Shown here: one piece after another, positions 57,340 through 64,000 of the stretch
How positions within the stretch are numbered: position 1 is the stretch's first letter
Layout: every line of letters begins with the position of its first letter
DNA from: Pseudacidovorax intermedius
GTDB lineage: Bacteria > Pseudomonadota > Gammaproteobacteria > Burkholderiales > Burkholderiaceae_C
Length of the DNA: 64,000 bases
Direction: 5' to 3'
Assembly: GCF_003350475.1 (NCBI RefSeq)
Contig: NZ_QQAV01000004.1
Coordinates: forward strand, 186,001 to 250,000
Made by a program: the position numbers and the translations under genes
The notes under the pieces: model-generated
Told to the model about the DNA's origin: nothing
What the model saw: the letters and a program-made list of their open reading frames with translations, nothing else
Database searches by the model: none

Positions 57340-60000
57340 ATGAGCCAGGTCGAAGAAGTCGGAATCATCATCCGCGCCGATGGCACGGTCGAGCTGGCCA
57401 ACGGCATGAAGCTCTCCAGCGACCAGGTGAAGAACCTGGCCCGCAACCTGGACGAGATGAGCGGCCGCCTCGACACGGCCGACAAGAACGCGAAGAAGGC
57501 CGCGCCCACCATGCGCGAGATGGGCGAGCAGCTCGGCCAGGCGGGCCAGGCGGCCGTCCAGCTCGGCAAGGACCTCGCCTCCGGCAACCTGCAGGGCGCT
57601 GCCGGGAGCCTGGGCACGCTCACGAACGCCGCCGGCGGCCTGAACCTGTCGCTGGGCGCCATGGTGGGCATCGGCGCCGCGGCCGCGGCCGGCGTGGCGC
57701 TGGTGGGCTATGCGGCCTCCAAGGGCAAGGACGAAGTGCGCGGCCTCGCCGACGCGCTCATCCTCTCCGGCAACTACGCCGGCACCACCTCCGCCCAGAT
57801 GTTGGACATGGCGGCCAGGATGGACAAGGTGATCTCGACCGAGTCCAAAGCCATCGACGTTCTGCAGCAGCTGACGGCGAGCGGGCAGATCGCCGGCAAC
57901 GAGTTCGAGAAGCTCGGCGTGGCCGCCATCGCATGGGAGCGCGCCACGGGCACGGCCATCTCCAACACGGTCAAGGAATACGTGCGGCTGGGCGAGGACC
58001 CGGCCAAGGCCTCGGCCAAGCTGAACGAGCAGATGAACTATCTCTCCATCAGCACCTACAAGCGGATCCGGGACCTGGAGGAACAGGGCCAGAAGGAAGC
58101 CGCTGCCGCTGTTGCCCAAGAGGCCTACGCGCAGGCGCTGAGCACCCGGGCCCGCCAGGTCGAACAGAACGCCGGGATCATGACCAAGGCCTGGCGCGCC
58201 GTGCGCGACGGGGCCATGGAGGCATGGGACGCAATGCTGGGCATCGGCCGAACCTCGTCCACGAACGAGAGGATCGCCACGCTCGAACGGCAGATCTCCG
58301 GCATCCAGACAGGCACCGAAGGCCGCTCGGCCAGCGGCCAGACTCGCCTCGCAGGCCTGCAGGCGCAACTGGCCGCCCTCAAGGAGGTAGAGCTGCTGCA
58401 ACGCCGCGCCGCGACCGCGGAGGGTGACCGCGCTCGCGAGGTGAAGGCCTATCAAGCCGCCGATCAGGAGTGGAGCAAGATCGTTCAGGCCAACCTGACC
58501 AAGCAGGAGCAGCTCGAAAAGAAGATCGACAACATTCGCACCACCGGCCGCGCGATGAAGTTGCCCGAGAAGGACATCGAAGAGCAGGTGCGCCGGGCTC
58601 GCGAGGCCGCGGCCGAGAAAGGCAGCGCCCCCAAGGCCTACACCGACGACGCAGCCACCCGCTATCTGCAGGGCCTGCGCGACTCCAATGCGGCGACGCT
58701 GGCGCAGCTGGCCAGCACCGACCGCCTGACCGAAGCCCAGCGCAAGCAGGCCGAGTTCATCCAGCTGATCGCCGACCTCAAGGAGAAGAAGGTCCTGACG
58801 GCCGATCAGAAGAGCCTGCTGGCGGCCGAAGGCCTCATCGAGGCTCAGCTGAAGGAGAACGTGCTGGCCGAGCGCCTGGTGGCGATCAAGGACGCCCAGG
58901 CCAAGAAGGAGAAGGAGCGCGAAGAGGTGGCCAAGCGCGCCGAGCAGGCGCTGATCGGGCTGCGCGCGAACCGGGAGGAGCTGCAGCGCAACCTCACCCA
59001 GCAATACGACCGCCGCCTGGCCGTCTTCGGCCTGGGCAGCGAGGCGCGTGAGCAGCTCGAATCCACCTTCAACCTGCAGGACCGGTATGTGAAGCTGCAG
59101 CAGGACCTGACCGAGCGCGCGTCAAAGGGCGGCTGGATGGGCTCGGCCGCCTACCAGGCTGAAGCCCGCGAGATCGAGCTGGCCCTGAAGAAGTCGCTGG
59201 CGGATCACGACGCCTACTACGCCGGCCTGAAGGAGCGGCAAGGCAACTGGGCGTTGGGCGCCCTGCAGGCCTTCAACAACTACCAGACGAGCGCCGCCGA
59301 CGTGGCCGGCCAGACCGAAGCCGCCTTCACCAACGCCTTCAAGGGCATGGAGGATGCACTGGTGAAGTTCGCCCAGACCGGGAAGCTGGACTTCAAGAGC
59401 CTGGCCAACTCGATCATTGCGGACATCATCCGGATCCAGACCCGCGCGGCCATGTCGGGCGTGCTGAAGTCGATCATGGGCGCCGCCTCCGGATGGCTTG
59501 GCGACGAAGCCGGCATGAGCATCAACAACACGTATGGGCCGAAGACTCAGGCCGGCATGGACAACCTGGTCAACAACATCCTGGCCGATCCGACCAAGAA
59601 CGCCAAGGGCGGCGTCTACACCTCGCCCTCCCTGTCCGCCTTCAGCAGCCAGGTCTACAGCAGCCCGCAGTTCTTCGCCTTCGCCAAGGGCGCCGGCGTG
59701 TTCGCAGAGGCCGGGCCCGAGGCCATCATGCCGCTCAAGCGCGGCCCGGACGGCTCCCTGGGCGTGGGCGTGCACGGGGCTGGCGCCGGCGCCGTCACGC
59801 TGCCGGTGCAGGTGAACGTGACGAACAACGGCCAGCCCGTCAGCGCCACGGTACAGCAGCGCCGCACCGACCAGGGCCTGCAGATCGACATGGTGCTGGA
59901 CCAGCTGGAGGGCCGCATGGCCGAGCGCGTGGCCACGGGCCAGGGATCCATGAGCCGGGCGATGGAAAGCCGCTACGGCTTGTCGACGGCGGTGGGCTGA
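57340..60000 (+). CDS. Tail tape measure protein
   Basis: An 886-residue protein that sets tail length. It begins MSQVEEVGIIIRADGTVELA, has a hydrophobic helix (LSLGAMVGIGAAAAAGVALV) followed by the tail-length motif DALILSGNYAGTTSAQMLDM, a long coiled coil (about 300-560) and a C-terminal lambda-H-like part (QTSAADVAGQTEAAFTNAFK, VFAEAGPEAIMPLKRGPDGS). The last is a common ending. It starts 9 bp after the GT stop. Confidence 0.92.
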   Translation: MSQVEEVGIIIRADGTVELANGMKLSSDQVKNLARNLDEMSGRLDTADKNAKKAAPTMREMGEQLGQAGQAAVQLGKDLASGNLQGAAGSLGTLTNAAGGLNLSLGAMVGIGAAAAAGVALVGYAASKGKDEVRGLADALILSGNYAGTTSAQMLDMAARMDKVISTESKAIDVLQQLTASGQIAGNEFEKLGVAAIAWERATGTAISNTVKEYVRLGEDPAKASAKLNEQMNYLSISTYKRIRDLEEQGQKEAAAAVAQEAYAQALSTRARQVEQNAGIMTKAWRAVRDGAMEAWDAMLGIGRTSSTNERIATLERQISGIQTGTEGRSASGQTRLAGLQAQLAALKEVELLQRRAATAEGDRAREVKAYQAADQEWSKIVQANLTKQEQLEKKIDNIRTTGRAMKLPEKDIEEQVRRAREAAAEKGSAPKAYTDDAATRYLQGLRDSNAATLAQLASTDRLTEAQRKQAEFIQLIADLKEKKVLTADQKSLLAAEGLIEAQLKENVLAERLVAIKDAQAKKEKEREEVAKRAEQALIGLRANREELQRNLTQQYDRRLAVFGLGSEAREQLESTFNLQDRYVKLQQDLTERASKGGWMGSAAYQAEAREIELALKKSLADHDAYYAGLKERQGNWALGALQAFNNYQTSAADVAGQTEAAFTNAFKGMEDALVKFAQTGKLDFKSLANSIIADIIRIQTRAAMSGVLKSIMGAASGWLGDEAGMSINNTYGPKTQAGMDNLVNNILADPTKNAKGGVYTSPSLSAFSSQVYSSPQFFAFAKGAGVFAEAGPEAIMPLKRGPDGSLGVGVHGAGAGAVTLPVQVNVTNNGQPVSATVQQRRTDQGLQIDMVLDQLEGRMAERVATGQGSMSRAMESRYGLSTAVG

Positions 60001-60002
60001 CC

Positions 60003-60365
60003 ATGGCAGCCTTCCCCCACGACTACGTCCGGCTGAGCTGGACCGACAGCGCCGACAAGCCCGCGCCCATCATGCTGCGCAGCGAGATGGAGCGCGGCGT
60101 GCCCAAGCAGCGCCGCATTGCCGCCGACGCGCTCACCGAGGTGCCGGTGACGCTGTTCTTCAACACGGCCCAGGCCGCGGCGGACTTCGAGACCTGGTTC
60201 TACAGCCAGGGCCTGGCCTGGTTCGACTTCACCCACCCACGCACCGGCACCGTGGTGCAGGCCCGCATCGTGGGCGGCGACCTGGGCGCGCTGACGCCGG
60301 CGACGGGCACCTGGGCGCGTAGCAAGCGGCAGGTGACGGTGGAGTACCTGCGCGCCGTGCTGTAG
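60003..60365 (+). CDS. Minor tail protein (lambda gpM-like position)
   Basis: A 120-residue beta protein (MAAFPHDYVRLSWTDSADKP, WFYSQGLAWFDFTHPRTGTV). It follows the tape measure by 2 bp, where gpM-like tail-tip proteins lie. The continuing tail-tip gene (63471) is displaced by about 3 kb of cargo. Confidence 0.7.
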   Translation: MAAFPHDYVRLSWTDSADKPAPIMLRSEMERGVPKQRRIAADALTEVPVTLFFNTAQAAADFETWFYSQGLAWFDFTHPRTGTVVQARIVGGDLGALTPATGTWARSKRQVTVEYLRAVL

Positions 60366-60373
60366 CCCAGGCC

Positions 60374-60850
60374 CTATTTTCTGATCGCCGACGGCATCAG
60401 GGCCCAGAACTCTCTTGCCTTGCCGCGAGACACGACGATGGAAAAGCTGTCGACGAACAGGAAGGTGTGCGTCTCGTAGTCATCCAACTGCAGCACCAGT
60501 CTGTCCCCACCTCCGAAGGTGTCGATGGAGGCTTCGATCAGCCGGGCAATGGGGATGCGCTTCAGGATGCTGAAGCGATCCGAGTCCCACTGCTCGATGT
60601 AGATGCTCTGATTCGTCAGCACGATCACGCCGGACTTCGGATACGAAGCCATCCGGAGATTTCTGGCATCGCTGAAGCCGCGCGTGTTCGCGTGCCATTC
60701 AACGGGCGAGACGAAGCGCACCGCGTTGTCTGCGACGGGCAGCGCATCTGCGGCACTCTGCTGGAGCCTCTGCGCATCGACGGGCCCCACCGCGCATCCC
60801 GCCAGCGCAACGACAGCGAGAACAGCCCCCAGCAGCCTCCACAGCTTCAT
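60374..60850 (-). CDS. Lipoprotein cargo gene in reverse orientation
   Basis: A 158-residue lipoprotein: MKLWRLLGAVLAVVALAGCA has a perfect lipobox LAGC. The mature part has a PH/GRAM-like beta pattern (YPKSGVIVLTNQSIYIEQWD, DRLVLQLDDYETHTFLFVDS). AGGAGAGG lies upstream of the ATG, and a 13-bp-arm dyad lies just before that. Opposite orientation to the tail genes and its own control mark it as a prophage cargo (moron) gene, likely expressed in the lysogen. Surface exclusion or envelope modification is possible. Confidence 0.78.
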   Translation of the reverse strand: MKLWRLLGAVLAVVALAGCAVGPVDAQRLQQSAADALPVADNAVRFVSPVEWHANTRGFSDARNLRMASYPKSGVIVLTNQSIYIEQWDSDRFSILKRIPIARLIEASIDTFGGGDRLVLQLDDYETHTFLFVDSFSIVVSRGKAREFWALMPSAIRK

Positions 60851-60874
60851 GAACGTTCCCTCTCCTAGTTGATC

Positions 60875-60906
60875 ACTGCGACTTTAATGCAGTAAAGTCG
60901 CAGTGC
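60875..60906. promoter_or_regulatory. 13-bp-arm dyad upstream of the lipoprotein gene
   Basis: CACTGCGACTTTA-N6-TAAAGTCGCAGTG is a perfect inverted repeat. It lies 24 bp upstream of the lipoprotein ATG, and its AT-rich core could overlap a -10. A repressor operator is likely; a transcript hairpin is the alternative. A second perfect hairpin GCCTGAT-N5-ATCAGGC adjoins it (60905-60923). Confidence 0.65.
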
Positions 60907-60958
60907 CTGATGGTGAATCAGGCCGAGTTTGACAGCTCGAAGATCACTGCCGCGTCGG

Positions 60959-60994
60959 CCGCATCAACGCTTCCTGTTGAAATGCGGCTTTTTC
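60959..60994 (+). terminator. Intrinsic terminator reading rightward
   Basis: GCCGCAT-CAAC-N7-GTTG-AA-ATGCGGC followed by TTTTT. It would stop late tail transcripts before the next cargo unit, or end a short RNA starting near the dyad. Confidence 0.75.
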
Positions 60995-61094
60995 GTTCGC
61001 GCCCCAGTTTTGGCGGCTCGGCGGGAGGGCTCACGCCCTGCCGGCTTACGCAAGTGGTCCCGGTCTGTCAACCCGTTCGAGCCGCCGCCCTCGT

Positions 61095-61122
61095 TTGACA
61101 GCGGGAGCGGTGGTTGTAGCAA
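61095..61122 (+). promoter_or_regulatory. Promoter candidate for the island B cargo operon
   Basis: A perfect -35 TTGACA (61095-61100) and TAGCAA (61117-61122) with a 16-bp spacer lie 25 bp before the 114-aa gene. CTGTCAA (61065-61071) forms an inverted pair with TTGACAG (61095-61101) and may be an operator half. Confidence 0.55.
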
Positions 61123-61146
61123 ATCGACCATCTGCGAGGCCACACC

Positions 61147-61491
61147 ATGGCTACCACTGCCACCGCCACCGAGTCCGTCAGGGCTCCCTCCCCCTTCAAG
61201 TCCTACCCCGCCAAGATCCAGCGGCAGCTCAGCATCGAGCTGATCGACATGCTCTCCGGCGTCACTGACGACGCTGCCCGGGCCAGCAGCGCCCTGCAGG
61301 GCCTGGCCCAGCTGCTGGAGGGCTGCGCCCCCGGCCACGAGCTGCAGGCCGGCAACCTGCGCGAGCTGGTGGAGCCCATCTGCCTGTCGATGGACAACGT
61401 GGCGGCCGACCTGGCGGCCATGCTCAACGTGGAAGGCTGGCGCGCCCGCGCCGGCGCACTGGCCAACGCCACGAAGGGCGCTGCGGCCTGA
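61147..61491 (+). CDS. Small helical protein leading the TcmP unit (114 aa)
   Basis: Starts MATTATATESVRAPSPFKSY; the rest is three or four helices (RQLSIELIDMLSGVTDDAAR, CLSMDNVAADLAAMLNVEGW). It has no membrane segment. It resembles DUF3077-like phage/plasmid proteins only loosely. It is the first gene after the cargo promoter, 104 bp upstream of the three-Cys gene, so it may belong to the same unit. Confidence 0.5.
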   Translation: MATTATATESVRAPSPFKSYPAKIQRQLSIELIDMLSGVTDDAARASSALQGLAQLLEGCAPGHELQAGNLRELVEPICLSMDNVAADLAAMLNVEGWRARAGALANATKGAAA

Positions 61492-61595
61492 TCCGACTGG
61501 GAGCGCCGCCCGCGCTGCTCACCGGACAATGGCGGCGGCGCCCCTACCTTTCGGCCGATAGCGGCCGTGCCCCCAACACATAGACTGGACTGAAC

Positions 61596-62471
61596 ATGGC
61601 CAAGGATTCACGCATCGAGTGGACGCACCACACGTTCAACCCCTGGTGGGGTTGCGTCAAGGTGTCGCCGGCCTGCGATCACTGCTACGCCGAAGCCTGG
61701 GCCAAGCGCGTTGGCTCGGACGTCTGGGGCCCCGAAACGGGCCGCCGCTTCTTCGGCGACGCTCATTGGAAAGAACCGCTGAAGTGGAACCGCGACGCGG
61801 AGGCCGAAGGCGTGCGCCGCCGGGTGTTCTGCGCCTCCATGGCGGATGTGTTCGAAAACCGCGACGACCTGATCGAGCCCCGCAAGCGCCTGCTGGACCT
61901 GATCGAGGCCACGCCCATGCTGGACTGGCTGCTGCTGACGAAGCGCATCCACCTGGTGAAGAAGCTGCTGCCCAAGGGCTACAAGTTGCCAAAGCACGTG
62001 TGGCTCGGCACCACGGTGGAAAACGCCGAATACGCCAAGAAGCGGCTGCGCTACCTGCTCGAGTTCGACACGCCCTCGGTGCGCTTCGTGTCGTGCGAGC
62101 CCCTTCTAAGTGAGTTGGATCTGACCGCCTACCTGCAGCCGAATGCCGCAGGCGTGCGTGTCGACTGGGTGATTGCGGGTGGTGAGAGCGGGCACGGTGC
62201 AAGACCGATGAACCCAGCGTGGCCGGAGGCGCTGCAGAAGCAGTGTGCCGACGCGGGCGTGCCCTTTCACTTCAAGCAATGGGGGCACTGGGCTCCGGTC
62301 GATCCCCTTGCACTTCCGCAAGGCCTGCCGGAGAAGAAGGTCGTCCGCTTCTACCGCGGTAGAGAGGCCGTGCCTGTCGTCAGTGTTGGCAAGACCGCCG
62401 CAGGGCGCATTCTTCGAGGACGCACATGGGATCAATTCCCCGCGACAAGGGGCCTGACACACACAGCCTGA
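61596..62471 (+). CDS. Three-Cys-motif protein, phage Gp37/Gp68 family (PF07505)
   Basis: A 291-residue protein. The name-giving motif is WWGCVKVSPACDHCYAE with Cys20, Cys27 and Cys30 (C-x6-C-x2-C), which may hold an iron-sulfur cluster as in radical-SAM-like enzymes; the family's reaction is not established. Other conserved blocks are RRVFCASMADVFEN, WLLLTKRIHLVKKLLP and WVIAGGESGHGARPMNPAW. It overlaps the TcmP gene by 46 bp, the hallmark pairing of the family. It is cytosolic. Confidence 0.92.
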   Translation: MAKDSRIEWTHHTFNPWWGCVKVSPACDHCYAEAWAKRVGSDVWGPETGRRFFGDAHWKEPLKWNRDAEAEGVRRRVFCASMADVFENRDDLIEPRKRLLDLIEATPMLDWLLLTKRIHLVKKLLPKGYKLPKHVWLGTTVENAEYAKKRLRYLLEFDTPSVRFVSCEPLLSELDLTAYLQPNAAGVRVDWVIAGGESGHGARPMNPAWPEALQKQCADAGVPFHFKQWGHWAPVDPLALPQGLPEKKVVRFYRGREAVPVVSVGKTAAGRILRGRTWDQFPATRGLTHTA

Positions 62472-63394
62472 AGCTTTTCGACGCCGACGAGCTGACCGAC
62501 CCGCCGCAGACTGCCGGCGGCGTGGTTGAGATGCCGTCCACCTTCCGGAAGAGCGCCTTCGATGGCTATCCGGTGTGGACCGAGAACAAGTCGAAGCTGA
62601 TTCAGCAGTACGTCTACCACTTCATCATGGTCACGCACCATGGGACGTACATCGATGGCTTCGCCGGCCCCCAGGTCGAGGAATACAACGACGATTCCTG
62701 GTCGGCCAAGCGTGTGCTGGAGATCAAGCCGCCATGGATCAGGCGCTTCATGCTCTGCGATCTATCCCCCGCCCAGGTGGGCCGCCTGGAACAACTGAAG
62801 CAGGAGCGCCGGGACGCCGGCGACAAGCGGAAGATCGAGATCCTCGGCGGCGACTTCAACGTGGTGGTCGACTCGATCCTGACCCCAGACAACATCGGCG
62901 AGCGCGAGGCAACCTTCTGCCTGCTGGACCAGCGCACCTTCGAATGCCAGTGGAAGACGGTGGAGAAGCTGGCGGCTTACAAGTCGCTGTCGAAGATCGA
63001 GCTGTTCTACTTCGTGCCCGTAGGCTGGCTCAACCGGGCGATGTCGCGAACCACCAAGCAGGAGGACAAGCTGCGGGCCTGGTGGGGCCGTGACGACGTG
63101 GACATCGTGCGGAATGCACGGCAGGTCGACGTGGCCGAGCTGTTCGTGGACCGCTTTCAGCGGGAGCTGGGCTACAAGAAGGCCCTGGCGTGGCCCATCC
63201 ACGACCGCGGCAGCGAAGGTCGGGTGATGTACTACATGATCCACGCCACGGACCATCCGCAGGCGCCGAAGCTCATGAACCGGTCCTATTGGAAGTCCAC
63301 CAAGGCGGCCGAGCCCATGGCCCACACCCAGGCGGTGCTCGAGGGCTTCGAGCTGGGTGGTGCGCCACTCCAGGGGCCGCCGGCGGGCGAATAG
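62426..63394 (+). CDS. tcmP: Three-Cys-motif partner protein TcmP
   Basis: A 322-residue protein of the family defined by its partner, the Gp37/Gp68 protein. Conserved parts are WTENKSKLIQQYVYHFIMVT (51-70), YIDGFAGPQ (75-83), which looks like the nucleotide or SAM loop of a methyltransferase-type fold, and FCLLDQRTFECQWKTVEKLA, where most relatives have a LDP-G type motif. GAGGA lies before ATG 62426 and supports the long overlap; ATG 62531 is an alternative. A terminator follows the stop. The biochemical role is not known to me; a joint nucleic-acid-modifying or defence role is inferred. Confidence 0.88.
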   Translation: MGSIPRDKGPDTHSLKLFDADELTDPPQTAGGVVEMPSTFRKSAFDGYPVWTENKSKLIQQYVYHFIMVTHHGTYIDGFAGPQVEEYNDDSWSAKRVLEIKPPWIRRFMLCDLSPAQVGRLEQLKQERRDAGDKRKIEILGGDFNVVVDSILTPDNIGEREATFCLLDQRTFECQWKTVEKLAAYKSLSKIELFYFVPVGWLNRAMSRTTKQEDKLRAWWGRDDVDIVRNARQVDVAELFVDRFQRELGYKKALAWPIHDRGSEGRVMYYMIHATDHPQAPKLMNRSYWKSTKAAEPMAHTQAVLEGFELGGAPLQGPPAGE

Positions 63395-63415
63395 CGCCGG
63401 CACGCCGTGCACTCT

Positions 63416-63439
63416 GGGGGCCGATTGGCCCCCTTTTTT
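63416..63439 (+). terminator. Intrinsic terminator closing island B
   Basis: GGGGGCC-GATT-GGCCCCC followed by TTTTTT. It is the twin of the terminator at 49302 (one loop base differs). It separates the cargo from the resumed tail genes. Confidence 0.92.
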
Positions 63440-63450
63440 CGTCCTGCCGC

Positions 63451-63465
63451 GGCACCTAAGGTGCC
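63451..63465 (+). promoter_or_regulatory. Hairpin GGCACC-TAA-GGTGCC before the tail gene
   Basis: A perfect 6-bp stem with a 3-base loop ends five bases before the ATG at 63471. There is no separate ribosome site, so the hairpin covers the initiation region and may limit translation unless late transcripts refold it. Confidence 0.45.
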
Positions 63466-63470
63466 GGGCC

Positions 63471-63947
63471 ATGAGCTTGACTCCCAGCACTGTGCGCGCC
63501 CTGCAGCGCGTGGACGACACCGGCGGCATGCTGGTGCTGCTGGACATCGACCATCCCTCCCTGTCGGGGCCGGTCCACATCGTCAACGACACGCGCGGGC
63601 TCACCAGCCGCGGCATCGACTACATCGCCCTGCCCTTTGCGGTGACCCTGCCGCAGGACAAGAGCAAGGAGATCCCGCGCGCCCAGCTGCAGGTGGACAA
63701 CGTGGGCCGCGAACTGACGGCCGAGCTGGAACGCCTGCCGCCGGGCGCGGTGCTGACGGCCACCATCTCCATCGTGTACCGCGGCTCGCCGGACACGGTG
63801 GAATACGCCTTCACCTCGCCGCTGTCGTCGGTGCGGGCAACCGTGCAGAGCGTTTCCGCGTCGATGGGGCCGGATGACGTGATGCGCCTGCCGGCGGTGC
63901 GCGTGCGCTTCGACCCGCGCACGGCGCCGGCCGTCTTCCCGGGGTGA
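63471..63947 (+). CDS. DUF1833-family minor tail protein
   Basis: A 158-residue tail-tip protein (VRALQRVDDTGGMLVLLDID, DYIALPFAVTLPQDKSKEIP, VQSVSASMGPDDVMRLPAVR). DUF1833 proteins take the place of lambda gpL between gpM- and gpK-like genes in related phages. It is coupled to the next gene by a TGATG junction. Confidence 0.82.
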   Translation: MSLTPSTVRALQRVDDTGGMLVLLDIDHPSLSGPVHIVNDTRGLTSRGIDYIALPFAVTLPQDKSKEIPRAQLQVDNVGRELTAELERLPPGAVLTATISIVYRGSPDTVEYAFTSPLSSVRATVQSVSASMGPDDVMRLPAVRVRFDPRTAPAVFPG

Positions 63948-64000
63948 TGGGCATGGACGAGATGCTCCGGCGCGCCCAGGCCTACGTGGGCCTGCCCTAC
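63947..64000 (+). CDS. Tail-tip protein, NlpC/P60-type start (cut by the window)
   Basis: Only 18 codons are visible (MGMDEMLRRAQAYVGLPY). An opening with A..Y.GLPY is typical of NlpC/P60 peptidase-domain tail proteins (lambda gpK), whose catalytic Cys comes soon after. Position after the DUF1833 gene agrees. Confidence 0.6.
   Translation, partial: MGMDEMLRRAQAYVGLPY

Follow-up and report, generated by a model that had tools for sequence, protein, structure and literature searches.

What is a pair of enzyme-like genes doing among the tail genes of a prophage, and what controls it? The question is raised by a 64-kb stretch of Pseudacidovorax intermedius DNA (64,000 nucleotides, positions 186,001 to 250,000 of contig NZ_QQAV01000004.1, assembly GCF_003350475.1), which is the DNA examined in our study and is hereafter called the window. 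Near its end, a DUF5131 (Gp37/Gp68) gene overlaps a TcmP gene, and both stand behind a C4 antisense RNA. The explanation we put forward is that the pair is a horizontally moved, nucleic-acid-modifying conflict module, which a temperate phage carries as cargo and which C4 silences in the lysogen; we hold it tentatively, as a reading that could well prove wrong. The features on which the argument rests are the following (ORF, open reading frame; SAM, S-adenosylmethionine):

60366 to 63470: the cargo insert, 3105 bp, between a tail gene at 60006-60365 (phrog_384) and a DUF1833 minor tail gene at 63471-63947 (phrog_396)
60892 to 60943, forward strand: candidate upstream C4 target region (a1/b1-like), RF03163 at 18.2 bits, below the cut-off of 46.7, with TTGACAG at 60929-60935
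60905 to 60994, forward strand: isrK-like leader RNA with a terminator-like hairpin at its end, RF01394 at 27.1 bits, below the cut-off of 50
61006 to 61092, forward strand: C4 antisense RNA, Rfam RF01695 at 56 bits (cut-off 45), matched over its full length (positions 1-87)
61065 to 61071, forward strand: C4 segment b', CTGTCAA
61095 to 61101, forward strand: downstream C4 target b2, TTGACAG, earlier read as a -35 box
61147 to 61491, forward strand: 114-aa ORF, the first gene after C4, at the icd/orf45 place
61596 to 62471, forward strand: DUF5131 protein, 291 aa, with CX6CX2C at C20/C27/C30 and a predicted spore-photoproduct-lyase-like radical-SAM fold
62426 to 63394, forward strand: TcmP, 322 aa, of the LLDQR clade, with a predicted class I methyltransferase fold, overlapping DUF5131 by 46 bp

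The cargo status of the unit was addressed through the tail genes that flank it. Between them, the insert holds a reverse lipoprotein-like ORF, the RNA leader, the 114-aa ORF, DUF5131, TcmP and a terminator. DUF1833 was surveyed in 200 genomes of the family, 8 of which match (E ≤0.001) with the window's own included, and the four strongest besides our own were taken for comparison (L150 to L153). In all four of these related prophages, counterparts of the 60006-60365 gene and of the DUF1833 gene are adjacent, about 20 bp apart or less. Because the site is empty in these relatives, the comparison supports the DUF5131-TcmP unit being accessory prophage cargo, and the same empty sites led us to reject a core virion or packaging gene set, which an earlier note on this DNA had raised as a check. 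That note had described a self-contained accessory island set among tail genes; tail families do lie on both sides and the accessory part stands, while self-contained expression does not, given the C4 antisense RNA in front. The nearest intact pair found (L177; DUF5131 80% and TcmP 58% identical, with a 40-bp overlap) lies between the genes of the terminase large subunit and the portal, and this cargo thus occupies differing late-gene slots. The window region is also covered by a 49,844-base IMG/VR viral contig, in which TcmP is 100% identical, and hence that contig is not an independent occurrence. Two genomes with an empty tail site (G027:C88, L020, and G078:C3, L025) have a longer DUF5131 elsewhere on the contig concerned, at distances of about 13 and 40 kb.

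In front of the pair lie the C4 RNA and its leader, which had been missed in the earlier reading. C4 and one tRNA are the only Rfam matches over cut-off in the window. TTGACAG, at both 60929-60935 and 61095-61101, exactly complements the C4 segment CTGTCAA (61065-61071), and the RF03163 and isrK matches, which are sub-cut-off, are yet in their expected places. TTGACA occurs only 5 times in the window against 11.7 expected, and 3 of these fall within 172 bp here, where they form both targets of the C4 RNA and the C4 segment complementary to these. A second candidate pairing, recognized by eye, joins GCAAGUGGU at 61050-61058 with ACCAUCUGC at 61127-61135 by 8 of 9 pairs, the latter sitting just 5' of the start of the 114-aa ORF. 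The co-variation of these elements was examined in the window and 30 other C4 loci (one of them at 44.2 bits, below the cut-off), the 7-mer being locatable by pattern in 25 of the 31 rows (L281, L287, L291, L294, L298 and L305 were dropped). An exact complement of the locus's own 7-mer lies just downstream in 24 of the 25 loci, against 9 of 522 comparisons crossed between rows with different 7-mers, and upstream it is likewise present in 24 of 25, against 1 of 522 crossed. Because of this excess of own over crossed matches, the alignments indicate that the C4 7-mer and its targets co-vary as an antisense pair. C4 is over cut-off in 28 of the 200 genomes of the family, our own included. The TTGACA at 61095 had previously been taken as the unit's own promoter; a scan for sigma-70-type sites in 58000-64000 gave 0, and that candidate was rejected, the TTGACAG being the co-varying target b2.

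The arrangement recalls the P1/P7 immI (c4-icd-ant) and Gifsy-1 isrK-orf45-anrP operons, with which it has in common the C4 RNA, the flanking targets, a short leader ORF and further genes; here, in contrast, two enzyme genes replace the antirepressor and the operon lies among late tail genes. The P1 antirepressor is described as regulated by C4 and Icd, with mutations near C4 that may alter its expression (PMC8201110), and C4 RNA as inhibiting synthesis of the downstream antirepressor (PMC8201110, PMC12197685); c4 RNA is reported to block translation around the ribosome-binding site, and Gifsy-1 anrP to require orf45 translation (PMC12197685). Our cargo occupies the position where P1-type operons carry the antirepressor, and after C4 in the window there is no antirepressor gene, DUF5131 and TcmP being found there instead. 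Among the 74 ORFs that follow C4 in the 30 relatives, taking the first 25 of 49 families in the tally, phrog_63 (anti-repressor Ant) occurs 4 times, phrog_373 (anti-repressor) 2 times, and three more anti-repressor families and one Rha-like family once each.

In 7 other C4 loci, the sequence that precedes the first ATG aligns with the stretch 5' of the start codon of the 114-aa ORF (to 61145, just before the ATG). The protein itself has no family over cut-off in family searches and no homologue at E 0.01 in a phage search, and of 300 genomes of the order only its own has a match. About 23.5 kb downstream, the contig has a small ORF (L309, G000:C4:270728-270898) that is 32% identical to it over residues 38-95; this ORF precedes an integrase-like gene, by eye, and, if the IMG/VR contig is collinear, lies within its span.

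The 114-aa ORF, the CX6CX2C protein and its 46-bp overlap with TcmP had all been proposed from the letters of the sequence, and the ORFs and family matches bear them out. DUF5131 matches PF07505 with 270.3 bits (1.9e-80, cut-off 28.9). Its C20, C27 and C30 are invariant in 45 DUF5131 sequences, and among the loci compared (80 genome loci kept of 119 found, and the best 80 of 368 viral loci) CX6CX2CY is kept in 78 genome loci (of the other two, one ORF starts at a contig end and one has another spacing) and in 79 viral loci (the remaining one has another spacing); the loss of the Cys triad in relatives, another proposed check, is thus not seen. The structure model (predicted local distance difference test, pLDDT, 82.9; predicted template modelling score, pTM, 0.85) has as its only Protein Data Bank matches under E 1e-3 six spore photoproduct lyase entries. 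At E ≤0.01, 41 of the 45 members match TIGR04471 (radical SAM mobile pair protein A; best 4.8e-17) and 4 match TIGR04470 (pair protein B; best 0.0014). The window protein matches TIGR04471 at 1.4e-4 (21.4 bits, equivalog cut-off 355) over residues 80-228, outside the Cys motif. The name of these families also implies a mobile pair; the partner here is TcmP. When DUF5131 was aligned by hhalign with 11 PA0069-type radical SAM proteins, NPWWGCVKVSPACDHCYA was aligned with NPYSGCEHGCVYCYA (E 0.0011, probability 20%), which places NPWWGC-x6-C-x2-CYA of DUF5131 on NPYSGC-x3-C-x2-CYA of the PA0069 family, and 0 of 100 column shuffles score as high.

DUF5131 would share with spore photoproduct lyase and the PA0069 type a predicted fold and a Cys triad in an NP-x2-GC...CYA context; it differs from them in being smaller, in its TcmP partner, and in having CX6CX2C in place of the canonical radical-SAM spacing CX3CX2C. 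Other Cys spacings also exist in the radical SAM superfamily. Taken together, alignment and model suggest that DUF5131 is probably a radical-SAM enzyme; the fold search, TIGR04471 and the PA0069 alignment are all consistent with the metal cluster that had been suspected from its Cys motif. A sequence search for solved relatives gave no meaningful match.

TcmP matches TIGR04474 with 154.5 bits (4.8e-45, cut-off 53) and contains both YIDGFAGPQ and LLDQRTFE. Its model (pLDDT 83.9, pTM 0.79) retrieved class I methyltransferases and related SAM-fold proteins (spermidine synthases), with a best E of 9.2e-5, and on this prediction TcmP has the METHYLTRANSFERASE fold. K55 and D168 are the only invariant columns in 48 TcmP sequences. 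The weak matches to the TcmP profile in our survey of the family (13 inspected) are proteins that we take to be RlmJ-like, by their motif and from the RlmJ paper; an E. coli control also gives a sub-cut-off match to the profile. The hhalign comparison of the 48 TcmPs with 12 RlmJ-like proteins, from which L057 was excluded for its long N-terminus, gave E 3e-4 and a probability of 40%, with 0 of 100 shuffles as high. These hhalign scores vary with the settings: with match columns set by the first sequence, E is 0.83 for DUF5131-PA0069 and 0.017 for TcmP-RlmJ, and with 50% columns in local mode, 0.0011 and 3e-4. In the TcmP-RlmJ alignment, K55 falls on K18 of RlmJ, and D168 on the Asp of RlmJ motif IV (D178 in L046), which we equate with D164 of E. 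coli RlmJ. The activity of RlmJ, the 23S rRNA m6A2030 methyltransferase, is reported as abolished in alanine mutants of K18 and D164 (PMC3814359). The alignment starts at RlmJ position 16, so that the essential Y4 and H6 of RlmJ lie outside the aligned part. By subtype, LLDQR (0.004) and DQ-long (0.0025) TcmPs match RlmJ weakly. TcmP and RlmJ would have a fold class in common, whereas the window TcmP has DQR in place of DPPY, and we did not file the window protein as an RlmJ because motif IV, DPP[YF], is not matched. The SAM site proposed earlier for TcmP agrees with both the methyltransferase-type fold matches and the RlmJ alignment.

LLDQRTFE had been noted as standing where TcmP usually has an LDP-G type motif. 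It is present, but a reading of it as an oddity is not supported, for a branch with support of 100/100 sets the LLDQR TcmPs (26 rows) apart, and LLDQRTFE occurs in 18 of the 80 genome loci and 10 of the 80 viral loci (one of these being the window's own region). Its reading as a sign of methyltransferase decay was rejected, since it is a conserved clade signature. DQ-long TcmPs (11 rows) are grouped with branch support of 99/98, and two long-branched DP rows are of unsure placement. By motif, and with some loci cut by contig ends, a DQ-long TcmP has a DP-type beside it in 25 of 33 genome loci, an LLDQR TcmP in 1 of 18. The DUF5131 partners were placed on a tree of 102 rows, 6 of them unlabelled, built by a quick method with Shimodaira–Hasegawa-like approximate likelihood-ratio (SH-aLRT) support only. 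On it, the LLDQR-partnered rows require 15 label changes, at least 3 of them forced by supported branches, and the DUF5131 proteins of the window, L062 and L177 fall within a supported group of 27 rows, in which 21 have a DQ-long partner. Because LLDQR TcmPs are one clade, yet their DUF5131 partners need these 15 changes, the trees indicate that DUF5131 and TcmP lineages have been reassorted and partners exchanged, from which we infer a common DUF5131 core enzyme with exchangeable TcmP partners. Mean column identity is 20% in TcmP (48 sequences) versus 57% in DUF5131 (45 sequences). In the closest bacterial relative (L062 791-1678, Xylophilus sp.), the C-terminus of TcmP seems cut short.

The distribution of the pair is patchy. 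DUF5131 is present in 27 of the 200 genomes of the family, and TcmP is over cut-off in 15 of the same 200 and in 19 of 299 genomes of the phylum; 147 phage records carry DUF5131, and by tblastn 3 phage records and 3 plasmids carry TcmP. A TcmP ORF accompanies DUF5131 in 68 of the 80 genome loci, a figure biased by the choice of loci for likeness to the paired query, and in 23 of the best 80 viral loci. Both window proteins match the PADLOC candidate PDC-M41 (PDC, phage defence candidate), DUF5131 as PDC-M41B (2.6e-53) and TcmP as PDC-M41A (1e-13), the latter partially, over residues 93-223 in the best model. This call means that both components lie side by side by model match, independently of PADLOC thresholds and system rules. 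The same two components are therefore matched here, with the difference that in the window they are phage cargo behind a C4 RNA. DUF5131 also matches the PDC-M30 B model. PDCs are described as candidates obtained via guilt by embedding, mostly awaiting validation (PMC12988326), and no paper on PDC-M41 that would validate it was found in the open-licence literature.

The surroundings of the families point the same way. The 150 immediate neighbours of the 80 genome loci match 449 PADLOC families, and 150 control genes match 56, of which those listed have 1 member each; among the first 25 families listed for the neighbours are ThsA/ThsB, AbiEii, SoFic, mad3/mad8 and RecD-like. The controls came from 20 arbitrary stretches of the window's relatives and other proteobacteria, their genes are longer (mean 313 vs 266 aa), and one stretch itself carries type III restriction-modification genes. 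This measure is coarse, with redundant models, a few near-copy loci, mechanical gene calls and totals that are not per gene. At the 19 LLDQR loci, one of which has a broken TcmP, 66 neighbours match 82 PADLOC families, first among them type IIG and other restriction-modification, with housekeeping families as well. In addition, one expression table for S. meliloti lists the TcmP gene SMa2243 next to the phage-defence gene hna (SMa2245) (PMC12445080). The PDC-M41 matches, the neighbour survey and the hna listing agree with the defence link suspected in the earlier note, and these comparisons support linking the DUF5131/TcmP families to defence loci. The commonest neighbour family, DUF6471 (PF20075; 7 of the 150 immediate neighbours), is possibly a regulator or a further component.

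Three further features complete the insert:

60374 to 60850, reverse strand: small lipoprotein-like ORF, 158 aa, N-terminus MKLWRLLGAVLAVVALAGC, divergent from the cargo operon
60874 to 60905: near-perfect dyad, arms of 16 nt (94%), at the start of the C4 leader, which it separates from the divergent lipoprotein-like gene
63416 to 63439, forward strand: intrinsic terminator closing the unit, 7 G-C pairs in a stem at 63416-63433, then T6

The reverse lipoprotein had been noticed before, and the ORF is present with a lipobox, LAGC, seen by eye; family searches gave it no match over cut-off, and our guess is that it could be a superinfection-exclusion lipoprotein. The dyad has a single genomic copy even when 3 mismatches are allowed, and is a possible operator or RNA hairpin. 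The terminator expected at the end of the unit is there by shape and place, and on these the call rests, since terminator-like sites are not enriched in 58000-64000 (4, with 3.3 expected by chance) and 10 of 200 shuffled sequences fold equally well.

How might such a unit work? In the explanation that we tentatively favor, DUF5131 would be a spore-photoproduct-lyase-type radical-SAM enzyme and TcmP its methyltransferase-fold partner, and the two would modify or un-modify nucleic acid bases, most likely in DNA or RNA belonging to a competing phage or to the infected cell. The conserved catalytic core would be DUF5131, and the fast-evolving, exchangeable TcmP would set the target or add a second step on adenine. 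The cargo operon would have taken the antirepressor's place behind the C4 antisense leader; pairing of C4 RNA with both TTGACAG sites would block translation of the 114-aa leader ORF and so silence the pair. By analogy with P1, the quiet lysogen would keep the pair off, and the absence or loss of C4, upon entry into a new cell or upon induction, would turn it on. Such a latch speaks against constant shielding of the lysogen; it favors a role upon entry or induction, or one directed at cells that lack this C4. In a more pointed version, which we regard as rather unlikely, the radical-SAM core and its exchangeable partners would form a weapon silenced by an immunity-type C4, with the immunity RNA as antidote or licence; cells without that C4, such as naive cells or heteroimmune lysogens, would let the weapon fire, and the RNA would tie a conflict module to immunity.

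Several results weigh against this explanation. On the enzymes, the best fold matches are partial: that of DUF5131 to spore photoproduct lyase (E 1.3e-4, prob 1.00) has a modest TM-score of 0.39, and its model has low confidence where the Cys triad lies (block means 52 and 72), while the best match of TcmP has a TM-score of 0.37. The two hhalign probabilities, 20% and 40%, are low, the window TcmP has DQR in LLDQRTFE where RlmJ has DPP[YF], and RlmJ is not matched (E 0.22) when the 19 DP-type TcmPs are compared on their own. Nor is the pair obligatory, as 57 of the best 80 viral DUF5131 loci have no TcmP ORF (some are cut by contig ends). On the control, the C4-target duplex energies are not exceptional (fractions of 0.109 and 0.198 of random windows are as low), and the ORFs that follow C4 in the relatives also include replication, thymidylate synthase and other families. 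No C4 was found at gathering threshold in 14 other loci (13 with DUF5131 and one with a sub-threshold C4), and for this reason C4 control may be particular to this phage and not general to the DUF5131-TcmP pair. Finally, C4 control would turn the pair off in the lysogen, which is awkward for a standing defence.

The best surviving alternative, which we consider somewhat improbable, is self-protection: the pair would modify the phage's own DNA on entry or replication against host restriction, C4 would be the off-switch once the phage is lysogenic, and the bacterial copies would have been captured from phages or turned to other use. An early anti-restriction function agrees with the C4 timing taken from P1 (silence in the lysogen, expression at entry or induction), the likeness to spore photoproduct lyase and adenine methyltransferases points to nucleic acid bases, restriction-modification genes neighbour the LLDQR clade, and DUF5131 is frequent in phages (147 records). 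However, the copies on genome contigs have neighbours rich in defence families, which is odd for pure phage self-protection, and TcmP is rare in phage records (3 by tblastn). Less probable still is a standing defence, in which the pair would be expressed in the lysogen and block infecting phages, C4 merely dampening it. The PDC-M41 match, the defence-family neighbours and the TcmP gene listed beside hna agree with it, as does, by correlation only, a report that 68.8% of the 32 P. aeruginosa strains with a predicted PDC-M30, whose B model matches DUF5131, were resistant (PMC10855318); against this, C4 of P1 is reported to inhibit synthesis of the downstream antirepressor, so that the operon should be off in the lysogen (PMC8201110, PMC12197685), and the sigma-70-type promoter scan of 58000-64000 was empty. 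Repair or housekeeping for host fitness, with DUF5131 as a photoproduct-lyase-like repair enzyme and TcmP as an RNA methyltransferase, would suit the best DUF5131 fold match and the role of RlmJ as an rRNA methyltransferase (PMC3814359), but is very unlikely given the patchy occurrence (27 and 15 of 200 genomes), the mobile and defence context, and the strong divergence of TcmP (20% versus 57% mean column identity).

No published function for the DUF5131-TcmP pair was found in the open-licence literature; the pairing of the families and their listing as a defence candidate were already known, and our study adds to this a probable chemistry, the rule of partner exchange and the C4 latch. For a widespread pair, the cargo-module explanation offers a testable chemistry, a rule that joins one core enzyme to interchangeable partners, and a switch in the case of one phage. 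If the C4 control proposed here is true, antisense immunity RNAs would govern more than antirepressors, and the deletion of one small RNA would be a simple way to switch the module on and learn its role.

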